Below, one piece after another: positions 6,333 to 55,865 of a stretch of DNA of 64,000 nucleotides. Origin of the DNA: Monodelphis domestica (Eukaryota > Chordata > Mammalia > Didelphimorphia > Didelphidae); assembly GCF_027887165.1 (NCBI RefSeq), contig NC_077235.1, positions 9,310,884 to 9,374,883 on the forward strand. The letters are read 5' to 3'. A model generated the notes under the pieces. The model saw nothing but the letters and a program-made list of their open reading frames with translations, had not been told where the DNA came from and did no database searches. The position numbers were made by a program, and so were the translations under genes. Within the stretch, counting starts at the first letter, position 1. The number at the start of each line of letters is the position of its first letter.

Positions 6333-6347
6333 TTAAGGGCAATTTTT
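6333..6347. repeat. Target site duplication, 3' side of the long L1
   Basis: The 15-base ttaagggcaattttt corresponds to ttaagtgcaattctt at 12806-12820 with two mismatches. The pair brackets the L1 between them and marks it as one insertion. Confidence 0.7.
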
Positions 6348-6639
6348 AAACATTATTTTATTTGGTCATATTCAAACATTATTCATTGGAAACAAAGATC
6401 ATTTTCTTTTCCTCCCCCCCTCCCACCACTTCTCCCATAGCCGATGCGCAATTCCACTGGGTATCACATGTGTCTTTGATTCGAACCCATTTCCATGTTG
6501 TTGGTATTTGCATTAGAGTGTTCATTTAGAGTCTCTCCTCAGTCATATCCCTTCAACCCCTGTAGTCAAGCAGTTGCTTTTCCTTGGTGTTTTTTCTCCT
6601 AGATCCCTGCAGATTGTTCAGGGACATTACATTGACACT

Positions 6640-9600
6640 AATGGAGAAGTCCATTACGTTAGATTGTACCAGTCTCTGTGTACAATGTTTTCCCAAGTCT
6701 GCTACTTTCTCTCTGCATCACTTCCTGGAGGTTGTTCCAGTCTCCATGGAATTCCTCCACTTTATTATTCCTTTTAGCACAATAGTATTCCATCACCAAC
6801 ATATACCACAATTTGTTCAGCCATTCTCCAAGTAAAGGGCATCCTCTCATTTTCCAATTTTTGGCCACCACAAAGAGCACAGCTGTGAATATTCTTGTGC
6901 AAGTCTTTTTCCTTATTATTTCTTTGGGGGTACAAACCCAGCAGTGCTATGGCTGGATCAAAGGGCAGATAGTCTTTTAGTGCCCTTTGGGCATAGTTCC
7001 AAATTGCCCTCCAGAATGGTTGGATCAATTCACCACTCCACCAGCAATGAATTAATGTCCCTACTTTGCCACATCCCCTCCAGCATTAATTACTTTCCTT
7101 TGTTGTCATGTTAGCCAGTCTGCTATGTGTGAGGTGATACCTCAGAGTTGTTTGGATTTGCATCTCTCTGATTATAAGAGATTTATAACACTTTTCCATG
7201 TGCTTATTAATAGCTTTGATTTCTTTATCTGAAAACTGCCTATTCATGTCCCTTTCCCATTCATCAATTGGAGAATGGCTTGATTTAGCTCTTTGTAAAT
7301 TTGAGTGATTAAACCTTTGTCAGAGGTTTTTATGAAGATTGCTTCCCAATTTGTTGCTTCCCTTCTGATTTTAGTTACATTATTTTGTTTGTACAAAAGC
7401 TTTTTAATTTGATGTAGTCAAAATTATTTATTTTGCATTTTGTGACTCTAAGTCTTGCTTGGTTTTAAAATCTTTCCCTTCCCAAAGGTCTGACATGTAT
7501 ACTATTCTGTGTTTGCCTAATTTACTTATAGTTTCCTTCTTTATGTTCAAGTCATTCACCCATTCTGAATTTATCTTGGTGTAGGGTGTGAGGTGTTGAT
7601 CCAAACCTAATCTCTCCCACACTGTCTTCCAATTTTCCCAGCAGTTTTTATCAAATGGTGGATTTTTGTCCCAAAAGCTGGGGTCTTTGGGTGTGTTGTC
7701 TTGCTGAGGTCATTTGCCCCAAGTCTATTCCACTAATCTTCCTTTATGTCTCTTAGCCAGTAACAAATTGTTTTGATGACCACTGCTTTATAGTATAGTT
7801 TGAGATCTGGTACTGCAAGTCCTCCTTCCTTTGCATTTTTTTCATGATTTTCCTGGATATTCTTGATCTTTTGTTATTCCAAATGAACTTTGTTATGGTT
7901 TTTTATAATTCAGTAAAGTTTTTTGGTAGTTCAATGGGTATGGCACTAAATAAGTAAATTAATTTGGGTAGGATTGTTATTTTTATTATCTTAGCTCGTC
8001 CCACCCATGAGCAATCAATGTTTTTCCAATTGTTTAGATCTAGTTTTAGCTGTGTGGAAAGTGTTTTGTAGTTGTGTTCATATAGTTCCTGTGTTTGTCT
8101 CGGCAGATAGATTCCTAAGTATTTTATATTGTCTAGGGTGATTTTAAATGGTATTTCTCTAATTCTTGCTGCTGAAATGGGTTAGAGATATATAGAAATG
8201 CTGATGACTTATGCAGGTTTATTTTGTATCCTGCAACTTTTCTAAAGTTGTTGATTATTTCGACTAGCTTTTTGTTTGATTCTCTAGGATTCTTTAAGTA
8301 GACCATCATATCATCTGCAAAGAGTGATAGCTTAATCTCATTGACAATTCTAATACCTTCAATTTCTTTTTCTTCTCTAATTGCTACTGCTAGTGTTTCT
8401 AGTGCAATATTAAATAATAGAGGTGATAATGGGCATCCTTGTTTCACTCTTCATCTTATTGGGAAGGCTTCTAGTTTATCCCCATTGCAGATATTAGTTG
8501 ATGGTTTTAGATATATACTGTTTATTATTTTTAGGAATGACCCTTCTATTCCTATAATCTCTAGTGTTTTTAATAGGAATGAGTGTTGTATTTTATCAAA
8601 GGCTTTTTCTGCATCTATTGAGATAATCATGTGGTTCTTGTTGGTTTGCTTGTTGATGTGGTCAATTATGTGGATGGTTTTCCTAATATTGAACCAGCCC
8701 TGCATCCCTGGTATAAATCCTACTTGATCATGGTGGATGACCCTTGTGATCACTTGCAGGAGTCTTTTTGCTAGTATCCTACTGAAGATTTTTGCAGCTA
8801 TATTCATTAAGGAGATTGGTCTATAGTTTTCTTTCTCTGTTTTTGACCTGCCTGGCTTTGGGATTCGTACCATGTTTGTGTTGTAAAATGAATTTGGTAG
8901 AACTCCTTCGCTTATTCTGTCAAATAGCTTGTATAATATTGGCATTAGTTGTTCTTTGAATGTTTGATAGAATTCATTTGTGAATCCATCTGGACCTGGG
9001 GATTTTTTTCTTAGGGAGTTCTTTGATGGCTTATTCAATTTCTTTTTCTGAAATGGGGTTGTTAAGGTAATTTATTTCTTCCTCTTTTAGTCTAGGCAAT
9101 TTATATTTTTGTAAGTATTCATCCATATCACCTAGATTGCCATATTTGTTGCCATATAATTGGGCATAGTAGTTTTTAATGATTGCCTTAATTTCCTCTT
9201 CATTAGAGGTGAGGTCTCCTTTTTCATCTTGGATATTGTCAATTTGGTTTAGTTCTTTCCTTTTTTTAATTAGACTGACTAGTACTTTGTCTATTTTATT
9301 TGTTTTTCCAAAGTACCAGCTTCTGGTCTTATTTATTAAATCAATAGTTCTTTGACTTTCAATTTTATTAATTTCCCCTTTGAGTTTTAGGATCTCTAAT
9401 TTAGTCTTCATGTGAGGATTTTTAATTTGCATGCCCAATTCATTGATCTCTGCCCTTCTTAATTTGTTAATATATGAACTCAAGGATATAAATTTCCCCC
9501 TGAATACTGCTTTGGCTGCATCCCATAGGTTTTGAAAAGATGTCTCATCATTGTCATTTTCTTCAATGAAGTTATTAATTGTTTCTATGATTTGTTCTTT

Positions 9601-10360
9601 AACTGGTTTTGGAGAATCATATTGTTTAATTTCCTATTAATTTGTGATTTACCTCTCCATGTTCCCTTACTAATTATTATTTTCATTGCATTGTGATCTG
9701 AGAAACTTGCATTTATTATTTCTGCTCTTTTACACTTGTTTGCAATGTTTTATGCCCTAATACATGGTCAATTTTTGTGAATTGCCATGTGCTGCAGAAA
9801 AGAAGGTATATTCCTTTTTGTCCCTATTTATTTTTCTCCACATGTCTACTACCTCTAATTTTTCTAAGATTTCATTCACTTCTCTTACCTCTTCCTTATT
9901 TTTTTATTTGATTCATCTAGTTCGGATAGAGGAAGGTTCAGGTCTCCCACTAGTATTGTTTTTCTATCTATTTCATCCTTGAGCTCCTTTAGTTTCTCAT
10001 TTAGAAATTTGGATGCTATGCCATTTGGTGCATACATGTTGAGTACAGATATTTCCTCATTGTCTATATATACTGCCTTCCCTGTCTCTCTTAACTACAT
10101 TTATTTTTACTTTGGCTTTGTCTGATATCATGATTGTGACTCCTGCCTTCTTTTTATCAATTGATGCCCAATAGATTTGGCTCTACCCTCTTACTTTCAT
10201 CCTAGGTGTATTTACCTTCCTCATGTGTGTTTCTTGAAGACAGCATATGGTAGGGTTTTGGATTCTAATCCACTCTATTTGCTTGCGTTTTATGGGTGAG
10301 TTCATTCCATTCACATTCAGAGTTATGATTACTAGCTGTGTATTACCCAGCATTTTGATT
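6640..10360 (-). pseudogene. L1 ORF2 (endonuclease - reverse transcriptase), broken
   Basis: Reading from 10360 downward, endonuclease fragments with 'CCLQETH' lie near 10240. Near 8970 is the '[13 protein letters not shown]' fingers segment, followed by '[14 protein letters not shown]', '[18 protein letters not shown]' and '[11 protein letters not shown]'. '[12 protein letters not shown]' and the catalytic '[16 protein letters not shown]' lie near 8300-8440. The C-terminal '[14 protein letters not shown]' block lies near 6850. The long open pieces at 9031-9483, 8451-9038 and 8133-8447 are in different frames or separated by stops, so no full protein can be made. Confidence 0.88.
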
Positions 10361-10899
10361 TCTACTCCTGGTCCTATTTCCTTCTACACCAATGTTTGTT
10401 TTTAATCAGTCCCCCTAGTTCCCACCCTTATTTTACTTCCCTTTCTACGCCCCCCTCCCTCCCTTGTACTGCTTTCCTCCCCACCAGTCCATTTGTTCTT
10501 ACCCTTCTATTCCCCTATAGGGCACAAATCTATTCTCTGCCCCCAATGGATTGGATTGTTTTTCCCTCTTTGAGCCAATTTCAAAGCACATAAAAGTTGA
10601 GTATTTCCTGTCTCCGACCTCTTTACCCTTCCAGTGTATTGATGTTCTCCCCCCTCCATACTTGAGTTTCTTTGTGACATATAAATTTACCCCCATTTGT
10701 TTCTTTTCCCATTTCTTTTAATATTAACCTATTTTAAGCTCTATTTATACATATATATGTATACACATGTCTATGTATTTATGCCTTGTCCTCTCATCCT
10801 ATACAGTTTGTCACTGTTCCCTGCTAAGTGTACTTCTTTTTGCTGCCCAGGTAATAAGTTTTTAAGAGCTACCAATGACCTCTTTTCTTATAGGGATAC

Positions 10900-11965
10900 A
10901 TATCATTTTAACTTTTTGAGTTTCTTAAAAAAAAGATTTTGTTTTGTTTGAGTTCTGTGCTTGGACATCAAATTTTCAGGTCTGGTCTTTACGGATTCTT
11001 GGAATTCTTCTATTTTGTTGAATGACCATACTTTCCCCTGTAAGAATATAGTCAGTTTTGCTGGGTAGTTGATCCTTGGTTGTAGACCTAGTTCCCTTGC
11101 TTTCTGGACTATCATATTCCATGACTTTTGGTTCTTCAGTGTAGATGCAGCCAGATCCTGCGTTATCCTCACTGTGGTTCCGTGGTATCTGAATGACTTC
11201 TTCTTGGCAGCTTGTAATATCTTTTCTTTGGTCTGATAGTTCTTGAATTTGGCTATAGCATTCCTGGGTTTTGTTAGATAAATACAGGAGGTGATCTGTG
11301 GATTCTTTCAATCTCCACTTTTCCCTCTTGTTCTAGGATATTGGGTCAGTTTTCTTTAATAATTTCCTGTAATATGATGTCCAGGCTTTTCCTTTTGTCA
11401 TGGTCTTCTGGTAGACCAATGATTCTTAAATGGTCTCTCCTTGAATGATTTTCTAAATCTTCTGTTTTGTGAATAGGATGCTTCATATTTTCCTCAATTT
11501 TTTCATTCTTTTGATTTTGTTTTATAGTGTCCTGATGCCTTGTGAAGTCACTTGTTTCTAGTTGTTGTATTCTGGATTTTAAAGACTAGATTTCCTCCCT
11601 GGATTTTTGGTCATCCTTCTCCTTCTTGTCTGATTTTCTTTGGAGGCCATCTTTCATCTCTTTTGCCTCATTTTCCAGCTGGTTGATTTTGGCTTTCAAG
11701 ACACTATTTTCTGTTTCCAGATGATTTACCTTAGTATTTAAGTTCTTTTCTCAAATGTCTTTAGCCTCTCCTGTGTTTTGAATTGCATTTTGAGTTCTTC
11801 CAAAGCCTGTATCCAATTCGCTGGGATTTCTGATTTTTTCCTTTGCTGATCCCCCCCCCCCGTTTCATTTCCTCTTTGCTCATTACCTGTACAGAAGCTG
11901 TCTATTGTAATTTCTTTCTTCTTTTTCTCTTGTTTGCTCGAGTTTACCCCTTCTTTGCTCCCCAT
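10900..11965 (-). pseudogene. L1 ORF1 (RNA-binding chaperone), broken
   Basis: The likely start is the ATG complementary to 11963-11965 (MGSKEG...), followed by lysine-rich sequence and 'NWIQALEELKMQFKTQ'. The frame is lost at about 11738. The C-terminal nucleic-acid binding part is recognisable at 10903-11172 through 'QKARELGLQPRINYPAKLTI'. The middle (11300-11740) is coiled-coil-like but interrupted by stops. The frame upstream of 11965 is open only because the GC-rich 5' UTR lacks stops. Confidence 0.75.
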
Positions 11966-12059
11966 ATTTGTCTGTTCTCTTGCTCCTCTAATTTTTTTTG
12001 GTTTGGGGGCTGTCAGTCTCCCCTCTTGGAGCTTTGTCATATCTCTTGGTACAGTCTCT

Positions 12060-12805
12060 AGGGGAGGAATGTTAAGCTTCCCTGTCCTCTGGAGGCTTTT
12101 AATCGGATTAAGTTCAACTGGGTTGGGCTGTATGTGCTCTGAGGCAGAAGACTCCTGGAAGGCAGGAGCTGCCCAGGCTCTCTCCAGTGCTCTCCAGCTG
12201 CTTCTCCGCTGTCTGAAGGTACCCCAGTGCCTTTGCCCACCCCGAGGTTCCTGTCCTTGCAGGAGGCCCTCCATGCTATGGGGGGATGGGTCCTGGCCTC
12301 CCTGAGCTCTGAGGAGTCCTGATGGGATTAGGTTCAACTGGGTTGGTCTGGATGTGCCCTGAGGCAAAAACCTCTGGTGAGACAGGAGCCAGATGGAACA
12401 ACCCAGCCACAGGGAGCCCCGGTCTCTCCCTTGCTACCTCCCTCCTGTGCGTGCTGGATGCTCTGAGCCCCCCAGCAACCTGCTGCTCACAAGGTAGACT
12501 CTCCAAACCAGCACCTTTGCCCGCCCAGAGGTTCCGGCTGCAGCTGGGGGCTCAGCACTCTGGGTTGGGGGGGAGGGGTCCTGGGACCTTCCTTCTGCCT
12601 TCCCGTTAGACCCAAGTGTTCTCGGATTCTGGCTTTTGGGGGGAGTACCTTTTGATTTGAGTCCAGAAGGAGGGTTCCCCACCTCTGTCCTGTTGTTAAG
12701 TTTGAATTTCAGTCCTCTAGGAGCGTTCAGTTTGTGATCGGTAAGGAAGGGTTTTCAGAGGTCTGAACTTTTGCTGCTTCTAAAGCGCCATCTTGACTCC
12801 GCCTC
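12060..12805 (-). promoter_or_regulatory. L1 5' UTR / internal promoter with repeated units
   Basis: This GC-rich 5' region precedes the L1 ORFs on the minus strand. A segment containing ttcaactgggttgg and a following 'tgtgcYctgaggca' occurs at about 12113 and again at about 12333, a spacing of 220 bp. Another shared block (ctttgcccRcccNgaggttcc) occurs at about 12231 and 12515. L1 promoters of other mammals are also GC-rich, and some are built of tandem monomers; activity here is inferred. Confidence 0.55.
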
Positions 12806-12820
12806 TTAAGTGCAATTCTT
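12806..12820. repeat. Target site duplication, 5' side of the long L1
   Basis: Partner of 6333-6347, with 13 of 15 bases matching. It ends 16 bases before the left arm of the palindrome begins. Confidence 0.7.
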
Positions 12821-12836
12821 GAAGCATTGTGTTAAA

Positions 12837-13710
12837 TTAATGTTTTTCTTGGAAGTCGAGCCACTTGTAAATCCTGCAGGCTTAAAAAGTCAACAATAAT
12901 TATTTTCTCTAAGTAACTTTAGCCAGAACTCTGCCTGGGTTTGCTGCTCTAGTCTTTTCCCATATTTAGGTATTGGCCAGCTCCTTCTGGGGTAGGGAAG
13001 CTCCTGTGGCACATATCAGTATTCCCCTAAAGTTACTGATTATGGATCATCCTTAGGCTCAGTATGAGAGACTAGCCCTGCTTGCCCTCCCTCTACATAC
13101 CACATATGAGGTCACTGAACATGTTCCAAGGCCTAAGGGGCCCAACAGAGAACTCTAGCATCTGTCAATCAGTAAGCCTTTATTAAGATACAAAACACTC
13201 AATCCTTACTCTAAAGGAGCTAACTAATGTTCAAGGGGGAGGGGCAGAAATTTCATGTGCAAATATATTACAGAATATATATAATACAAAAGTTAAATAG
13301 AAAGTTTAACAGTAGGGAAGAAATTCAATCATAAATTGGCAAAGACTGTCTGCAATCTTAATCCCTTGTTCCCTTGACCAGTCAGTGTTCTTGTATCTTC
13401 AGAGTTAGCTAATGAGATGAGGCTTAGCTAAATGAAACTCTCTCCTTTTCTTTCTTAGGCTCCAAGTTTACGCTTCCAAACAGCACTCTTCTGAGGATTC
13501 ACCTTTCACAGACAAGATGGGACAACCTAAAGGAACCATCCATGGCCTACAAGGTACTCACATCCTGGGACCTTGGCCAGCTAAGCTATCATCCTCCAAC
13601 AAATCCTGCTTGGACATGTAAGTTATGCACTGGTCCCCTCTTCCTCACTTGCATCACTCTAGGTGTCTATCTCTCTCCCTCCCTTGGTGTCTGTCTACAT
13701 AGGGGATCTC
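12837..13710 (+). repeat. Palindrome, left arm (874 bp)
   Basis: Base-by-base comparison with the reverse complement of 14149-15022 gives equal length, no gaps and three substitutions, at about 12857, 12972 and 13540. Outside 12837 the similarity stops abruptly. The arm holds a worn L2-like 3' end in minus orientation (cctttattaaga, about 13177) and an exon-like block at 13459-13617. Confidence 0.95.
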
Positions 13711-14148
13711 CGTCTTCTCTCCCTTCTTTTTCTCATCTACCCTTTACCTCTTATTTTCTCACTCTTTCCTTTCTCATTTCCATCTTCTCTCCTTTTTCTC
13801 TTTTTCATCTCCTATATCTTCTGTCTGTCTTTTTATCCTTTCCTCTCTTCTCCATTTCTGTCTATCCCTTCCCCTCTTTATTTTCGCACTCTTTCCAATC
13901 TCTTTTCTCTCCTCTCTCCTCTCTTCACTCTTATTTCCTCACTCTTTCCTGTCTTTTATCCTCTCCCCTCTACTCAACCTATTTCTCTCTTCCCTCTCCT
14001 TTCCTATCCCTCTTCTCTCTTTCTTGACTTCAAGTCAAGAAAGAGAGAAGAGGAAAGGAGATGGAGAAGAATTTAGAATAAAAAGACAGAAAAGATATAT
14101 AGGAAGAAGCGGCAAGAGACAAAGAGAGAGTAGAGGAAATAATGAAGA
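13711..14148. repeat. Palindrome centre, pyrimidine/purine switch
   Basis: Left of 14031 the + strand is almost pure C/T for about 320 bases; right of it the strand is purine-rich for about 117 bases. The exact centre is cttgactt-c-aagtcaag around 14031, with matching arms of at least 20 bases, so the hairpin has essentially no loop. The C/T side is about 200 bases longer than the G/A side, as expected from slippage in simple sequence or loss during replication. Confidence 0.9.
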
Positions 14149-15022
14149 GAGATCCCCTATGTAGACAGACACCAAGGGAGGGAGAGAGATAGACACCTAG
14201 AGTGATGCAAGTGAGGAAGAGGGGACCAGTGCATAACTTACATGTCCAAGCAGGATTTGTTGGAGGATGATAGCTTAGCTGGCCAAGGTCCCAGGATGTG
14301 AGTACCTTGTAGGCCATGGACGGTTCCTTTAGGTTGTCCCATCTTGTCTGTGAAAGGTGAATCCTCAGAAGAGTGCTGTTTGGAAGCGTAAACTTGGAGC
14401 CTAAGAAAGAAAAGGAGAGAGTTTCATTTAGCTAAGCCTCATCTCATTAGCTAACTCTGAAGATACAAGAACACTGACTGGTCAAGGGAACAAGGGATTA
14501 AGATTGCAGACAGTCTTTGCCAATTTATGATTGAATTTCTTCCCTACTGTTAAACTTTCTATTTAACTTTTGTATTATATATATTCTGTAATATATTTGC
14601 ACATGAAATTTCTGCCCCTCCCCCTTGAACATTAGTTAGCTCCTTTAGAGTAAGGATTGAGTGTTTTGTATCTTAATAAAGGCTTACTGATTGACAGATG
14701 CTAGAGTTCTCTGTTGGGCCCCTTAGGCCTTGGAACATGTTCAGTGACCTCATATGTGGTATGTAGAGGGAGGGCAAGCAGGGCTAGTCTCTCATACTGA
14801 GCCTAAGGATGATCCATAATCAGTAACTTTAGGGGAATACTGATATGTGCCACAGGAGCTTCCCTACCCCAGAAGGAGCTGGCCAGTACCTAAATATGGG
14901 AAAAGACTAGAGCAGCAAACCCAGGCAGAGTTCTGGCTAAAGTTACTTAGAGAAAATAATTATTGTTGACTTTTTAAGCCTGCAGGATTTACAAGTGGCT
15001 CCACTTCCAAGAAAAACATTAA
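14149..15022 (-). repeat. Palindrome, right arm (874 bp)
   Basis: This is the inverted copy of 12837-13710 and about 99.7% identical. The sequence following 15022 bears no relation to that preceding 12837. The long L1 that adjoins the left arm is absent here, so the duplicated unit ended at or just inside the L1 insertion site. Confidence 0.95.
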
Positions 15023-15595
15023 GTTGTACCATTTGAGGAAAAGAATCCCAATAACCTATATTTAATAATACTATTTCTTATTACAAAGGAGGGAAAGATG
15101 GTGGGGAGGGCCATGTGGCACAAGCAACACTAAGATCTTACTCTTATCAAAATTGGCTTCAAGAGGGACCAACACACATTCAGTTGGTTATAGAAATCTA
15201 TAGGGATAAGAGAAGGACTGACTGAAGGGAAGGGGGATTGGAGGAGGCAGCGGTCAAAAGAGAAGAAATAAGCTTGCAAGAGAATGTGAATGGGGTGGAC
15301 TCGCACATAAAATGGAAGGGACAGGATTAAAAACTGGAATCCTACAAATATGCTGTTTACAAGAAACACATCTGAAGCAGAGACACACATAGAGGAAAGA
15401 GAAGAGGCTTAAGCAGAATCTATTATGTTTCATCTGAAGTACATAAATGAGGGAAATGACATTTTACTAAGGAGTACCACAGACAATGAAGTAATAGCAA
15501 TACTAAAGATATATGCACCAAATGGTATATATCAGCAAAACAAATTCTGACAGAAAAAGTTAGGAGGAAGTAAGACAAGTCAGGTGGTTACCTAG
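15023..15595 (+). mobile_element. L1 ORF2 endonuclease fragment
   Basis: From about 15280 the + strand reads as worn L1 endonuclease: a 'tgctgtttacaagaaacaca' segment (the LQETH region), then 'aaagatatatgcaccaaatg'. It is broken by frameshifts. The first hundred or so bases after the palindrome are unassigned. Confidence 0.65.
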
Positions 15596-16570: not shown

Positions 16571-16693
16571 ATGTTTCAAGAAGACACAATGCACTCTCCC
16601 TGGATGAACAACACATTACACGTATTCTGTGCTATCAGTGGGACATCAGGTGATGGAGGCTTTGGCTCCCCAAGATACATGGCAGAAGTGTGA
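16571..16693 (+). CDS. DOCK11: DOCK11, last coding exon (C-terminal 40 residues)
   Basis: DOCK11 (zizimin-2) is a DOCK-D family guanine nucleotide exchange factor acting mainly on Cdc42 at membranes, notably in lymphoid cells. This exon follows a good acceptor at 16569-16570 and reads 40 codons to TGA at 16691-16693. The peptide contains '[20 protein letters not shown]' and ends 'GSPRYMAEV'. From memory of the family, the mammalian DOCK11 tail carries the same [13 protein letters not shown] core, while DOCK9 has a related NSLHIFNAISGT core. The catalytic DHR2 domain lies upstream, outside the window or in undetected exons. The ATG at 16571 is an internal Met, not a start. I found no other DOCK11 exon in 1-16570; the intron is inflated by L1s and a palindrome. 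Confidence 0.9.
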
Positions 16694-17045
16694 GGAATGA
16701 TGGATGTAGCATTAACCTAGACTGCCCTTTCGTGGGCATTTCTGGAACTGTGCAGATGTTAGAGGGAAGGTTTGATATCTATCCGTGCAGTATTTCTTCT
16801 GACTACCAACAGCCCACACTGTCAGGCTCTCAGACAGGGTGCTCACTTACTGGCAATACTTAAGAAATGTGGAAGTGCCTGAAAAATGTACCACTGCGCT
16901 TGTTTTCTATTTTTTTTTTTGTTAAACCTGTATACCAGAAAGCAGAGCTCGGGTAAATGAATTCAATTTGCTTAATTATAGCTCCAAATTGTAACGGTAC
17001 TATGTAAAGTTGTACAATGGGATAATAAAAGGTGAAACATTTGTA
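16694..17045 (+). other. DOCK11 3' UTR
   Basis: Non-repetitive sequence runs from the stop codon to a canonical signal at 17024-17029, with GT-rich sequence (ctttgtgtcttc) about 45 bases downstream that can act as the downstream processing element. The 3' end is inferred to be near 17045. A T-run occurs at 16911-16921. Confidence 0.7.
17024..17029 (+). terminator. Polyadenylation signal AATAAA (DOCK11)
   Basis: An exact AATAAA about 330 bases after the stop, followed by GT/T-rich sequence. It is the only such hexamer between the stop codon and the next clear LINE fragment at 17500. Confidence 0.75.
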
Positions 17046-40344: not shown

Positions 40345-43300
40345 TTAATAGGATAGAGCAGAAAAAAAGTAAACCTATACCAAGAAAATTGAGAGGGACG
40401 AGATCAGTGAATTGGGCTTGCAACTTAAAAAAATTAGAAAAAGAACAAATTAAAAATCTCCAGATAAAAACTAAATAGGAAATCGTAAAAATTAAAGGAG
40501 AAATTAATCAAATTGAAAGTAAAAGAACTATTGAACTAATAATAAGACTAGGATCTGGTACTTTGAAAAAAACACATAAAATAGATGAAGTACTGGTTAA
40601 TCTAATTTAAAAAAGAAAGAAGAGAATCAAATGAATAGTATCAAAGATGGAAAGGGCAACCTTGCCTCAAATGAAGAGGAAAGTAAGGTAATTATTAAGA
40701 ACTATTATGCCCAATTACATGGCAATAAATATGGCAATCTAGGTAAAACGGGTGAATAGTTACAAAAAATAGAATACTTAAATAATCCCATCTCAGAAAA
40801 AAAAATTGAACAAGCCATCAAGGAACTCCCAAAGAAAAAAATCCCCAGGGTCTAATGGATTCACAAGTGAATTCTATCAAACATTCAAAGAACAGCTAAT
40901 CCCAATACTATGCAAACTATTTCACAAAATAAGCAAAGAAAGAGTCTTACCAAATTCCAAATACCAAATTCCAAACAAATATGGTTCTGATTCCAAGGCC
41001 AGGCAGGTCAAAAACAGAGAAAGAAAACTACAGACCAATCTCCTTAATGAACATAGATGCAAAAATCTTAAATAGAATACTAGCACAAAGACTCCAGCAA
41101 GTGATCACAAGGGTTATTCATTATGACCAGGTAGGATTTATACCAGGAATTCAAGGATGGTTCAATATTAGGAAAACCATCCACAGACTTAACCATATCA
41201 ATAACCAAAATAACAAAAGTCACATGATTATCTCAATAGATGCAGAGAAAGTGTCAAAAAATTCATTTATATTAAAAACACCAGAAAGTACAGAAATAGA
41301 AGGGCCATTCCTCAAAATAATAAATAGTATATATTTAAAACCAGCAGCAAGTATCATCTGCAATGAGGACAAGTTAGAAGACTTCCCTATAAGATCAGGA
41401 GTAAAGCAGGGATGCCCATTATCACCTCTATTATTTAATATTATACTAGACATGCTAGAGATAGCAATTAGAGAAGAGAAAGAATTAAAGGAATTAAAGT
41501 AGGCAGTGAGGAGAACAAGCTATCACTCTTTGCAGATAATATGATGCTCTACTTAAAGAATCCTAGAGAGTCAACTAAAAAGCTAGTGGAAATAATCAAC
41601 AACTTTAGCAAGGTTGCAGGATACAAAATAAAACCACATAAATCATCAGAATTTCTATATATCTACAACACATCTCAACAGCAGGAATTAGAAAGAGAAA
41701 TTCCATTCAAAATCACCCTAGACAATATAAAATACCTGGGAATCTATCTGCCGAGACAAACACAGGAACTATATGAACACAACTACAAAACACTCTCCAC
41801 ACAACTAAAACTAGACTTGAGCAATTGTAAAAACATTGATTGCTCATGGGTGGGATGAGCAAACATAATAAAAATGACCATCCTACCCAAATTAATTTAC
41901 TTATTTAGTGCCATACCCATCGAACTACCAAAAAATTGTTTTATTGAATTAGAAAAAAACATAACAAAGTTCATTTGCAGGAACAAAAGATCAAGGATAT
42001 CTAGGGAAATAATGAAAAAAATGCAAAGGAAGGAGGACTTGCAGTCCCAGATCTCAAACTATATTATAAAGCAGTGATCATCAAAACAATATGGTACTGG
42101 CTAAGAGACAGAAAGGAGGATTAGTGGAATAGACTTGGGGTAAATGACCTCAGCAAGACAGTTTATGACAAACCCAAAGACCCCAGCTTTTGGGACCAAA
42201 ATCCAATATTTGATAAAAAAAACTGCTGGGAAAATTGGAAGACAGTGTGGGAGAGATTAGGATTGGATCAACACCTCACACCCTACACAAAGATAAACTC
42301 ATAATGGGTGAATGACTTGAACATGAAGAAGGAAACTATAAGTAAAGTATGTGAACACAGAATAGTACACATGTCAGACCTTTGAGAAAGGAAAGATTTT
42401 AAAACCAAGCAAGACTTAGAGTCACAAAATGTAAAATAAATAATTTTGACTACATCAAATTAAAAATTTTTTGCACAAACAAAACCAATGTAACCAAAAT
42501 CAGAAGGGAAATAACAAATTAGGAAACAATCTTCATAAAAACCTCTGACAAAGGTCTAATTACTCAAATTTACAAAGAGCTAAATCAATTGTAGAAAAAA
42601 TCAAGCCATTCTCCAACTGATAAATGGACATGGGACATGAATAGGCAATTTTCAGTCAAAGAAATCAAAATCATTAATAAGCACATGAAAAAAGTGTTCT
42701 AAATCTCTTATAATCAGAGAGATGCAAATCCAAACAACTCTGAGGTATCACCTCACACCTAGCAGATTGGCTAATATGACACCAAAGGAAAGTAATGAAT
42801 GCTGGAGGGGATATGGCAAAGTAGGGACATTAATGCATTGCTGGTGGAGTTGTGGATTGATCCAGCCATTCTGGAGGGCAATTTGGAACTATGCCCAAAG
42901 GGTGCTAAAAGACTGTTTGCCCTTTGATCCAGCCATAGCACTGCTGGGCTTGTACCTCAAAGAGATCATAAGGAAAAAGTCTTGTACAAAAATATTAATA
43001 GCTGCACTCTTTGTGGTGGCCAAAAATTGGAAAATGAGGGGCTGCCCTTCAATTGGAGAATGGCTGAACAAATTGTGGTGTATGTTGGTGATGGAATACT
43101 ATTGTGCTCAAAGGAATAATAACCTGGAGGAATTCCATGGAGACTGGAATGACATCCAGGAATTGGTGCAGAGCAAGAGGAGCAGAACCAGGAGAACATT
43201 GTACACAGAGACCGATAGATACACGCTGCGGGACAATCAAATGTAATGGACTTCTCCATTAGTGGCAATACAGTGATCACGAACAACCGGATGGAATCTA

Positions 43301-54339: not shown

Positions 54340-54717
54340 AGAAGCCCTCTCGGGGGCGGGCAGGAGAGCTCCGCCCCAGCGGGGATGAAGAGGAGCGGCA
54401 GGAGGGAGTTTAAGTTCAAGTTTGGAATTTTACTTCCGGGAAAGGCAGCCTAGGTAGCCGGGCCGGCCAGGCAGGTAGGTGTTTGGGGCGGGCTAGGCAA
54501 CTCAGCCTTCCCGGGTTACCTGAGGCAAGAGGGCGGGGCCTGCGACTGTTCACTCTTCCCGTCTGGCCCCGCCCCCTCGTCCCAGGCCGGCCGAGCAGCC
54601 CTAGAGTTGGAGTTGGGAAGTGCTCGGGAAGCCCGAGGGTGGACACCTCCTCCTCCGCTCTGCTGCCGCCGCCCTAAAGCTTTGGCCCGGCCGGCCAGTC
54701 TTGGGAGCAAGGGGCGC
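54340..54717 (+). promoter_or_regulatory. GC-rich promoter and 5' UTR of IL13RA1
   Basis: CpG-dense sequence, absent elsewhere in the window, leads into the first coding exon. GC boxes gggcggggcc (about 54531) and ccccgccccc (about 54567) can bind Sp1-type factors. 54434-54442 is ttccgggaa, which fits both an ETS core and a TTCNNNGAA STAT site. No TATA box is placed, so dispersed CpG-type initiation is expected. The exact start is not visible. Confidence 0.75.
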
Positions 54718-54799
54718 ATGGAGGGGCCCGTAATCCTCTGCCTGCTATGGGCTGCGGGGGTGCTTGGCACCCCCGCCACCTCCTCGGAGATCCCAACCG
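54718..54799 (+). CDS. IL13RA1: IL13RA1 exon 1 (signal peptide)
   Basis: IL13RA1 is the type I membrane receptor chain that binds IL-13 and, with IL-4R-alpha, forms the type II IL-4/IL-13 receptor signalling through JAKs and STAT6. This exon encodes 27 residues plus one base: ATG at 54718, a hydrophobic core (VILCLLWAAGVLG) and a small-residue region suited to signal peptidase cleavage. The donor is ccg|gtgagt at 54799/54800. Phase 1 matches the acceptor of exon 2 (joined codon GAA). The human protein also starts with a short MEW-type signal peptide from one exon. The upstream in-frame sequence is open but has no ATG, so 54718 is the start. Context at -3 is C and at +4 G. Confidence 0.85.
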
Positions 54800-55865
54800 G
54801 TGAGTGAGGTGCCCGGGGCTGGAATCGGCCCCCGGTGGGCTGGGGCGGGCACTTCCCTGAACTTGGGGCTCTTCCCCTGCCTGGAAGCTGACGGAGATCT
54901 GGGCAAAAAGTTCATCGATGGCCGAGAGAGAACGAACGGGGGGGAGGGGGGGGTTAAGAGGGGGCAGCCTGCTGGGAAAACGGACAGACGGACGGACAAA
55001 CACACGGGCGCTCGAGCTTTAAAGGGAAAGAAAAACTTTCTGATTTCTCTTTGGCGGCTTGACATTACCCTGTCCAGCAAAGCCTCCCTCAGGGAGAGAC
55101 ATTCTCTTGGCCGGTTGGACTTCGTGGCTCCCCCAGCAGAAAGGCAGCGTTGGCCAGGCTCGCTGGGGGGGGGGGGGGGCGGGGGGCGCCTTTAGGGAAC
55201 ATCCAGCATGAACCCCCACAGCTTCTGAAGGGAAGCGCCAAGCCCAGAGAGGGCGAGAGACCTGGCCCAGCTCCCACAGAGCAGCACAAGGACTCCAACT
55301 GGGCTGCTCAGTCGGCTGGCCTCTGACTAGGCGGCCACACAAGCCTGGTTCCATCTGACACCTCTGTTGGGCTCCTCAAATCCCTTTGTAAATGGCGGTT
55401 TGGACCTCGGAAGAATGAGGCCCACTGGATTTCCAGGCTGAGTGGCGGAAGGAGCTGGGCAAGGGAAGGTCTAGAGTGGCTTCTAGCAGCAAAATTGGCC
55501 AAAGTGGCTCCTAGCTCATTGTTCTTGGGGTTTTCACAAACCCTCAATCGTGTAGTTTCTCACTACAGATAACCACAGAAAGCTTCATGGAGGAAGAGGA
55601 ATGGCAGCCAGGCCTTGAAGGATGGATGAACTCTAAAAGATTGAAGGGGGGGGGGGGGAGGGCTTTCAGGTGAAGGCAAGACTGGGGGTAAAAAAAAGCC
55701 TGGCAGAGAAATCGGCTGAGCGGGTGGATTTTGAGAAGGCCCGGGGTGTGGAATAATGAGGTGTTAAATGAGTAAGAAGAACGAGTTAGATTTGATGTGG
55801 CAACAAGGAAGAAGGCTTCTTGTAGGGGAATGGCTCCATGAAAGTAACATCCTAGGGGGAGGGAG

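Follow-up and report, generated by a model that had tools for sequence, protein, structure and literature searches.

On mammalian X and Y chromosomes, large palindromes undergo conversion between their arms, and the excerpted text of PMC8981503 gives 37 kb as the median arm length on the primate X. PATRR11, PATRR22 and PATRR17 (in an NF1 intron) are near-perfect palindromes with a minimal centre, of several hundred bp and over 90% AT according to the excerpt of PMC7999016, which regards a long palindrome as a risk to genome stability when its spacer is short or absent. Fold-back inverted duplications have short inverted homology at the turning point and carry the inverted copy beside the original; the known cases, in the available portion of PMC3907307, are large, and their single-copy spacers measure 766-70,466 bp. 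For the human Y palindrome P8, growth by copying of flanking sequence through NAHR or BIR is reported, and its expansion in HG01781 is a 31.5-kb polymorphism in which the flank was copied onto the other end of the palindrome (PMC6790999, in excerpt). Among the ungapped, spacer-free palindromes with up to four mismatches catalogued in GRCh37, the longest is 618 bp (PMC7680136, in excerpt), and by the rule of that catalogue we would expect only the tip of the palindrome described here to count.

Here we analyse a palindrome of Monodelphis domestica in a 64,000-nt stretch of DNA (hereinafter the window; C9:9310884-9374883), which lies on the 89.4-Mb contig C9 of a 13-contig, 3.586-Gb assembly. 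Like the large X and Y palindromes, it has arms more than 99% identical, an unequal middle, arms that are closer within than between loci and, as inferred from the contig and from the presumed neighbouring genes, X linkage. Unlike them, it has outer arms of 874 bp, almost no spacer and, in the two arm ORFs tested, no Pfam domain. It shares near-perfection and a minimal centre with the PATRRs, some of which are intronic, but its GC content is 0.39-0.46 and its centre is CT/GA sequence; the tip is perfect over 22 bp, but the halves are 203 nt out of register. It resembles fold-back inverted duplications in its turning point and in the placement of the copies, but not in size or spacer. The growth that we propose below for 12837-13337 is similar to that of P8, but is deduced from one assembly. 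Among the titles and openings of abstracts listed by a literature search, none concerned this locus, and we claim no absence from print.

Structure of the palindrome

The palindrome is real in the assembly. Its outer arms, paired by the rule p + q = 27859, align over 874 bp with no gaps and three substitutions (871 of 874 positions alike, 99.66%), as the original prediction had stated, and thus lie above the 99% identity used as a criterion for mammalian X palindromes. Specifically, read in the same sense, the left and right arms carry C and G at 12857/15002, T and C at 12973/14886, and A and G at 13538/14321, namely two transitions and one transversion, without an indel. At the third of these sites the base of the left arm looks derived in the alignment to a related locus described below, so either this site mutated later than the last exchange or that exchange did not include it. 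The repeat search makes the arms 3 bases longer (877 nt, at 12834/15025), with an extra mismatch at 12836.

The arms are separated by 438 nt, which comprise 320 nt of CT-rich sequence, 1 nt and 117 nt of GA-rich sequence. The two halves of this inner tract are diverged as well as out of register. At the centre, the predicted almost perfect hairpin around 14031 is present as a near-perfect tip. The palindrome had also been called loop-free, which is true of the tip and not of the whole, given the 438 nt between the arms and the 203-nt inequality of the halves. GC content is 0.393 in the outer arm, 0.392 in the flank and 0.464 in the inner part.

TTAA terminates the arms on both sides. Because the window contains 5.7 TTAA per kb, these ends say little alone; the motif is self-complementary, and we examined it as a possible target-site duplication. 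We rejected an older, longer palindrome extending beyond the arms, since the symmetry score of the flanks is below the shuffle mean both with the L1 removed (21.5 versus 26.8) and with the L1 left in (14.5 versus 18.0).

Two arm ORFs, of 199 and 133 aa, matched nothing in Pfam at E up to 1. A splice-like exon at ~13460-13550 was dropped, as its acceptor AG is lost in the related locus (alignment, by eye). A MIR-like SINE considered at ~13160-13330 found no support in the analysis. Most likely the palindrome has no function, and it contains no recognised gene.

Table 1. Palindrome and neighbouring features (positions in the window).
Feature	Positions	Strand	Basis
Neighbouring L1, 5' end facing the palindrome; ends placed by eye	6355..12805	-	PF00078 and target-site duplication
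Left outer arm, 874 bp; begins with TTAA	12837..13710	+	Arm alignment, repeat search
Polarisable arm difference; A in left arm, G in right arm and sister locus	13538	+	Sister alignment
Left inner tract, CT-rich, 320 nt; degenerate 127-bp unit in ~2.1 copies	13711..14030	+	Sequence analysis
Hairpin tip; 36-nt arms, 22 bp perfect beside 1-nt centre 14031, then 6-nt indel	13995..14067	.	Repeat search
Right inner GA-rich tract, 117 nt; shorter, diverged counterpart of left tract	14032..14148	+	Tract alignment
Right outer arm, 874 bp; ends with TTAA	14149..15022	-	Arm alignment, repeat search
Old L1 fragment in right flank; placed by eye from L1 features	15095..15540	+	Sequence reading
Terminal-exon-like ORF of presumed host gene, 40 codons and stop	16571..16693	+	AG before ORF; AATAAA at 17024

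Genomic context

The palindrome is probably X-linked, since the size of the contig and the gene names given in the original prediction would fit an opossum X chromosome. The original prediction placed it in an intron of DOCK11, and this host gene is unconfirmed: the product of the terminal-exon-like ORF matched nothing in Pfam at E up to 1, and its matches in the PDB were no better than E=0.3, which is noise. Further along the window, 54600-54810 holds a signal-peptide-like ORF start, which may be exon 1 of the gene that follows, putatively IL13RA1.

To the left of the palindrome lies an element with a reverse transcriptase domain (PF00078, E 1.3e-20, window 8454-9071, minus strand); its naming as L1 beyond this domain is our assumption. 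An imperfect target-site duplication of 22-23 bp (6333-6354 and 12806-12828) scores 16.0, compared with 14.0 for the best of 2000 shuffles, and stops 8 bp short of the edge of the left arm. The L1 fragment in the right flank has a 49-bp inverted match (82%) to the left L1. A second L1 at 40600-43200 is inverted relative to 6667-9265, the two being 82-94% alike over the listed blocks. The segment 15660-15960 is CT-rich with repeated 'aggtgtct'-like words, and within it 35 bp are 86% identical to 13658-13692 of the inner arm.

A second inverted structure on the same contig

Using the 874-bp arm as a query against the genome, we found at least three places (3 of 3 candidates scored), namely the two arms and C9:52754034-52754326, which is 72% identical over arm positions 502-829 (window 13338-13665). 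All counts from the genome searches are lower bounds, common words being skipped. A 391-nt query from this sister locus likewise found at least four places (4 of 4 scored), the two window arms and two sister copies. The sister copies are inverted, at C9:52753224-52753346 (minus) and C9:52753973-52754363 (plus), and the first is 85% like the second. The sister locus is a second inverted structure, whose inner arms are 84.6% identical over 123 columns around a GA/CT-rich middle. It is a decayed palindrome (C9:52753224-52754329), with arms of unequal length and an insert of ~45 bp in one of them.

The outer half of the arm, 12837-13337, matched the two window arms only (2 of 2 scored; a lower bound). 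Similarly, 12806-13720 was compared with the window, masked, and with 210 kb of C9 made up of the 20 control stretches described below and the sister-locus stretch; it matched the sister locus (over 13338-13665 and 13606-13672) and its own unmasked edge, besides four weak matches within 13624-13696. A permissive alignment to the sister extends outward to ~12979, is gap-rich and lacks BLAST support; if it is real, the outer half is not new. On this evidence, with counts that are lower bounds, the sequences appear to form a two-locus family on one contig and not a high-copy mobile element.

To put the palindrome beside chance, inverted pairs of at least 60 bp, separated by a gap of up to 1 kb and with E no higher than 1e-5, were collected by BLAST from twenty 10-kb stretches of the same contig (200 kb, of which 6,621 bases are N). 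None of the 20 stretches contained an inverted pair above 88.4% identity or a non-overlapping inverted pair longer than 204 bp (81%). In the rest of the window, the same filter yields two inverted pairs, of 439 and 252 columns, at 65-66%. One control stretch (L018, 5755-6183) has a self-overlapping inverted match of about 61%, probably low-complexity sequence.

Divergence within and between loci

Over the 94 columns common to the four arms, the window arms differ at 0 sites, the sister arms at 10 and arms of different loci at 26-28. The best-aligned 60 columns give the same order, with 0, 4 and 10-12 differences, respectively. A bootstrap of 0.998 supports the two sister arms as each other's nearest relatives. 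A 22-to-0 site pattern grouping the arms by locus was rejected as evidence, because the window arms are identical there and no opposing pattern is possible.

At an assumed rate of 2-3e-9 substitutions per site per year, the point age is 0.57-0.86 Myr for the window arms (Poisson range 0.1-2.5 Myr); the sister arms come out at 19-29 Myr, and the separation of the loci at about 60-90 Myr. Arms that are closer within than between loci fit conversion and two independent fold-backs alike.

The inner tract behaves differently from the arms. Its halves differ at 7 of 51 aligned sites, compared with 3 of 874 in the arms (Fisher 1.1e-7), and the tract is thus ~40-fold more diverged. This contrast depends on how fast the tract mutates: P is 0.0017 if it mutates 10 times faster, 0.059 if 20 times faster with the point estimate of arm divergence, and an unremarkable 0.25 if 10 times faster with the upper bound of arm divergence. 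The distance between the left and right halves, 0.137, is similar to their distances from the sister, 0.132 and 0.102.

Homology of the tracts exceeds that of shuffled sequence by a modest margin (z 3.2-3.8). Specifically, left against right scores 33.5, compared with a maximum of 32.5 in 500 dinucleotide shuffles. Against the long tract of the sister, with 300 shuffles each, the left tract scores 90.0 (maximum 88.0) and the right tract 35.5 (maximum 34.5). The presumed short side of the sister is below its shuffles, at 8.5 against a mean of 10.9. Three comparisons with CT-rich controls give z of 0.6-1.8, and none of four further CT-rich controls exceeds its own shuffle maximum. A global alignment of the cores does not place the left inner arm on its counterpart. 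The position of the long tract on the same side at both loci was rejected as support, as orientation is free. The divergence of the tract points weakly to an old palindrome in which later conversion passed over the middle; the evidence is weak because low-complexity sequence biases alignment and may mutate fast.

Discussion

From the structure, the sister locus, the closeness of the arms and the contrast in divergence, we infer a common palindromic ancestry and later conversion, together with its direction and dates. On balance, and by no wide measure of confidence, we favour an ancient palindrome that predates the split of the two loci, with window arms overwritten by inter-arm conversion or break-induced copying. 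An ancestral inverted pair, consisting of inner arms, CT/GA tract and tip, would have existed before C9:9.32 Mb and C9:52.75 Mb separated, roughly 60-90 Myr ago at the assumed rate. At 52.75 Mb the arms would have stopped exchanging and then decayed. In the window, one arm would have suffered a break and been repaired from the other, and the outer 874 bp of one arm would have been written onto the other within the last ~2 Myr.

Copying within homology would amount to non-allelic inter-arm gene conversion. Copying into the flank, with rejoining near TTAA, would be break-induced and would extend the second arm by 12837-13337; this would account for the sister having shown no counterpart of that half. 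Mammalian conversion tracts are typically up to ~1 kb (PMC3723533, in excerpt), which is enough for 874 bp. The CT/GA tract would have been skipped, its 203-nt length difference hindering heteroduplex, and would keep its older divergence. That the tip is perfect over 22 bp while the core around it is diverged counts against this reading, as the tip then calls for separate upkeep. Hairpin template switching is a candidate for this, and short events of that kind perhaps kept the tip perfect.

Conversion between X-linked arms had been suggested at the outset. The sister palindrome, the closeness of arms within each locus and the divergence of the tract speak for it; the first two also fit fold-backs, and the third concerns low-complexity sequence. 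In primate X palindromes conversion is biased towards GC (PMC8981503, in excerpt), and the outer arm has no GC excess over the flank, which counts against conversion. Moreover, sharp, near-identical arms would also be given by a fold-back alone, and the evidence comes from one assembly.

A recent de novo fold-back, less than ~2 Myr ago, which the original prediction had also offered, is an unlikely but serious alternative. A 3' end would have snapped back at the tip hairpin, copied ~1 kb in reverse and rejoined near TTAA, which would make both arms at once, and the sister would have arisen separately from the same fold-prone sequence. The 99.66% identity and sharp ends of the arms are consistent with this, as is the short tip hairpin with its 1-nt centre, and closeness of arms within a locus is equally expected. 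Inverted duplications with 2-8 bp of microhomology are documented at 13 junctions in the excerpted text of PMC3907307. However, two events on one sequence would be needed, apparently at one tip (a match made by eye), and the ~40-fold greater divergence of the tract stays unexplained unless the tract is hypermutable.

An assembly or long-read artefact, with a fold-back or chimeric molecule incorporated into the contig, is improbable. Fold-back reads occur in both Nanopore and PacBio data, the two halves of such a read mapping to opposite strands of the same place (PMC12870357, in excerpt). A read of this kind returns over its own locus, so that its two outer flanks would share their sequence; the left and right flanks of the palindrome are unlike, with symmetry below the shuffle means given above. 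The simple form of the hairpin-read artefact raised in the original prediction is thus disfavoured, and its argument from the three arm differences is upheld, as these are clean substitutions with no indel. A second, decayed palindrome of the same sequence also speaks against an artefact.

We give very little credence to a mobile element of the fold-back type, which would have TTAA as its target site and terminal inverted repeats of great length: TTAA at both arm ends and two dispersed loci would suit it, but just two loci were found (a count of at least two), the outer half bearing the TTAA ends has no counterpart found at the sister, and TTAA is common in the window. A functional hairpin, to which we give as little credence, would on transcription yield a double-stranded RNA of roughly 1 kb, maintained for RNA editing or as a source of small RNAs; that a single contig carries two palindromes of the same sequence, and that the arms are nearly identical, would be in keeping with it, but the window and the sister-locus stretch have no Rfam match at the gathering threshold, and the sister has decayed.

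Returning to the old palindrome with overwritten arms, we tentatively extend it as follows. The two sister palindromes may share one ancestor, tens of Myr old, of which one copy is now self-correcting and the other dying; spacer-poor palindromes of kb size might then persist over such a time through conversion between the arms and grow by flank capture, and the unconverted inner tract might record the true age of the palindrome. If the palindrome is ancient, arm-to-arm conversion can maintain even a 2-kb palindrome and not just large, gene-bearing ones. It would be a small case of the arm overwriting known mainly from much larger repeats, and a homogenised and a decayed palindrome, with a tract that was skipped, would provide a natural test of how palindromes are born, grow and die.
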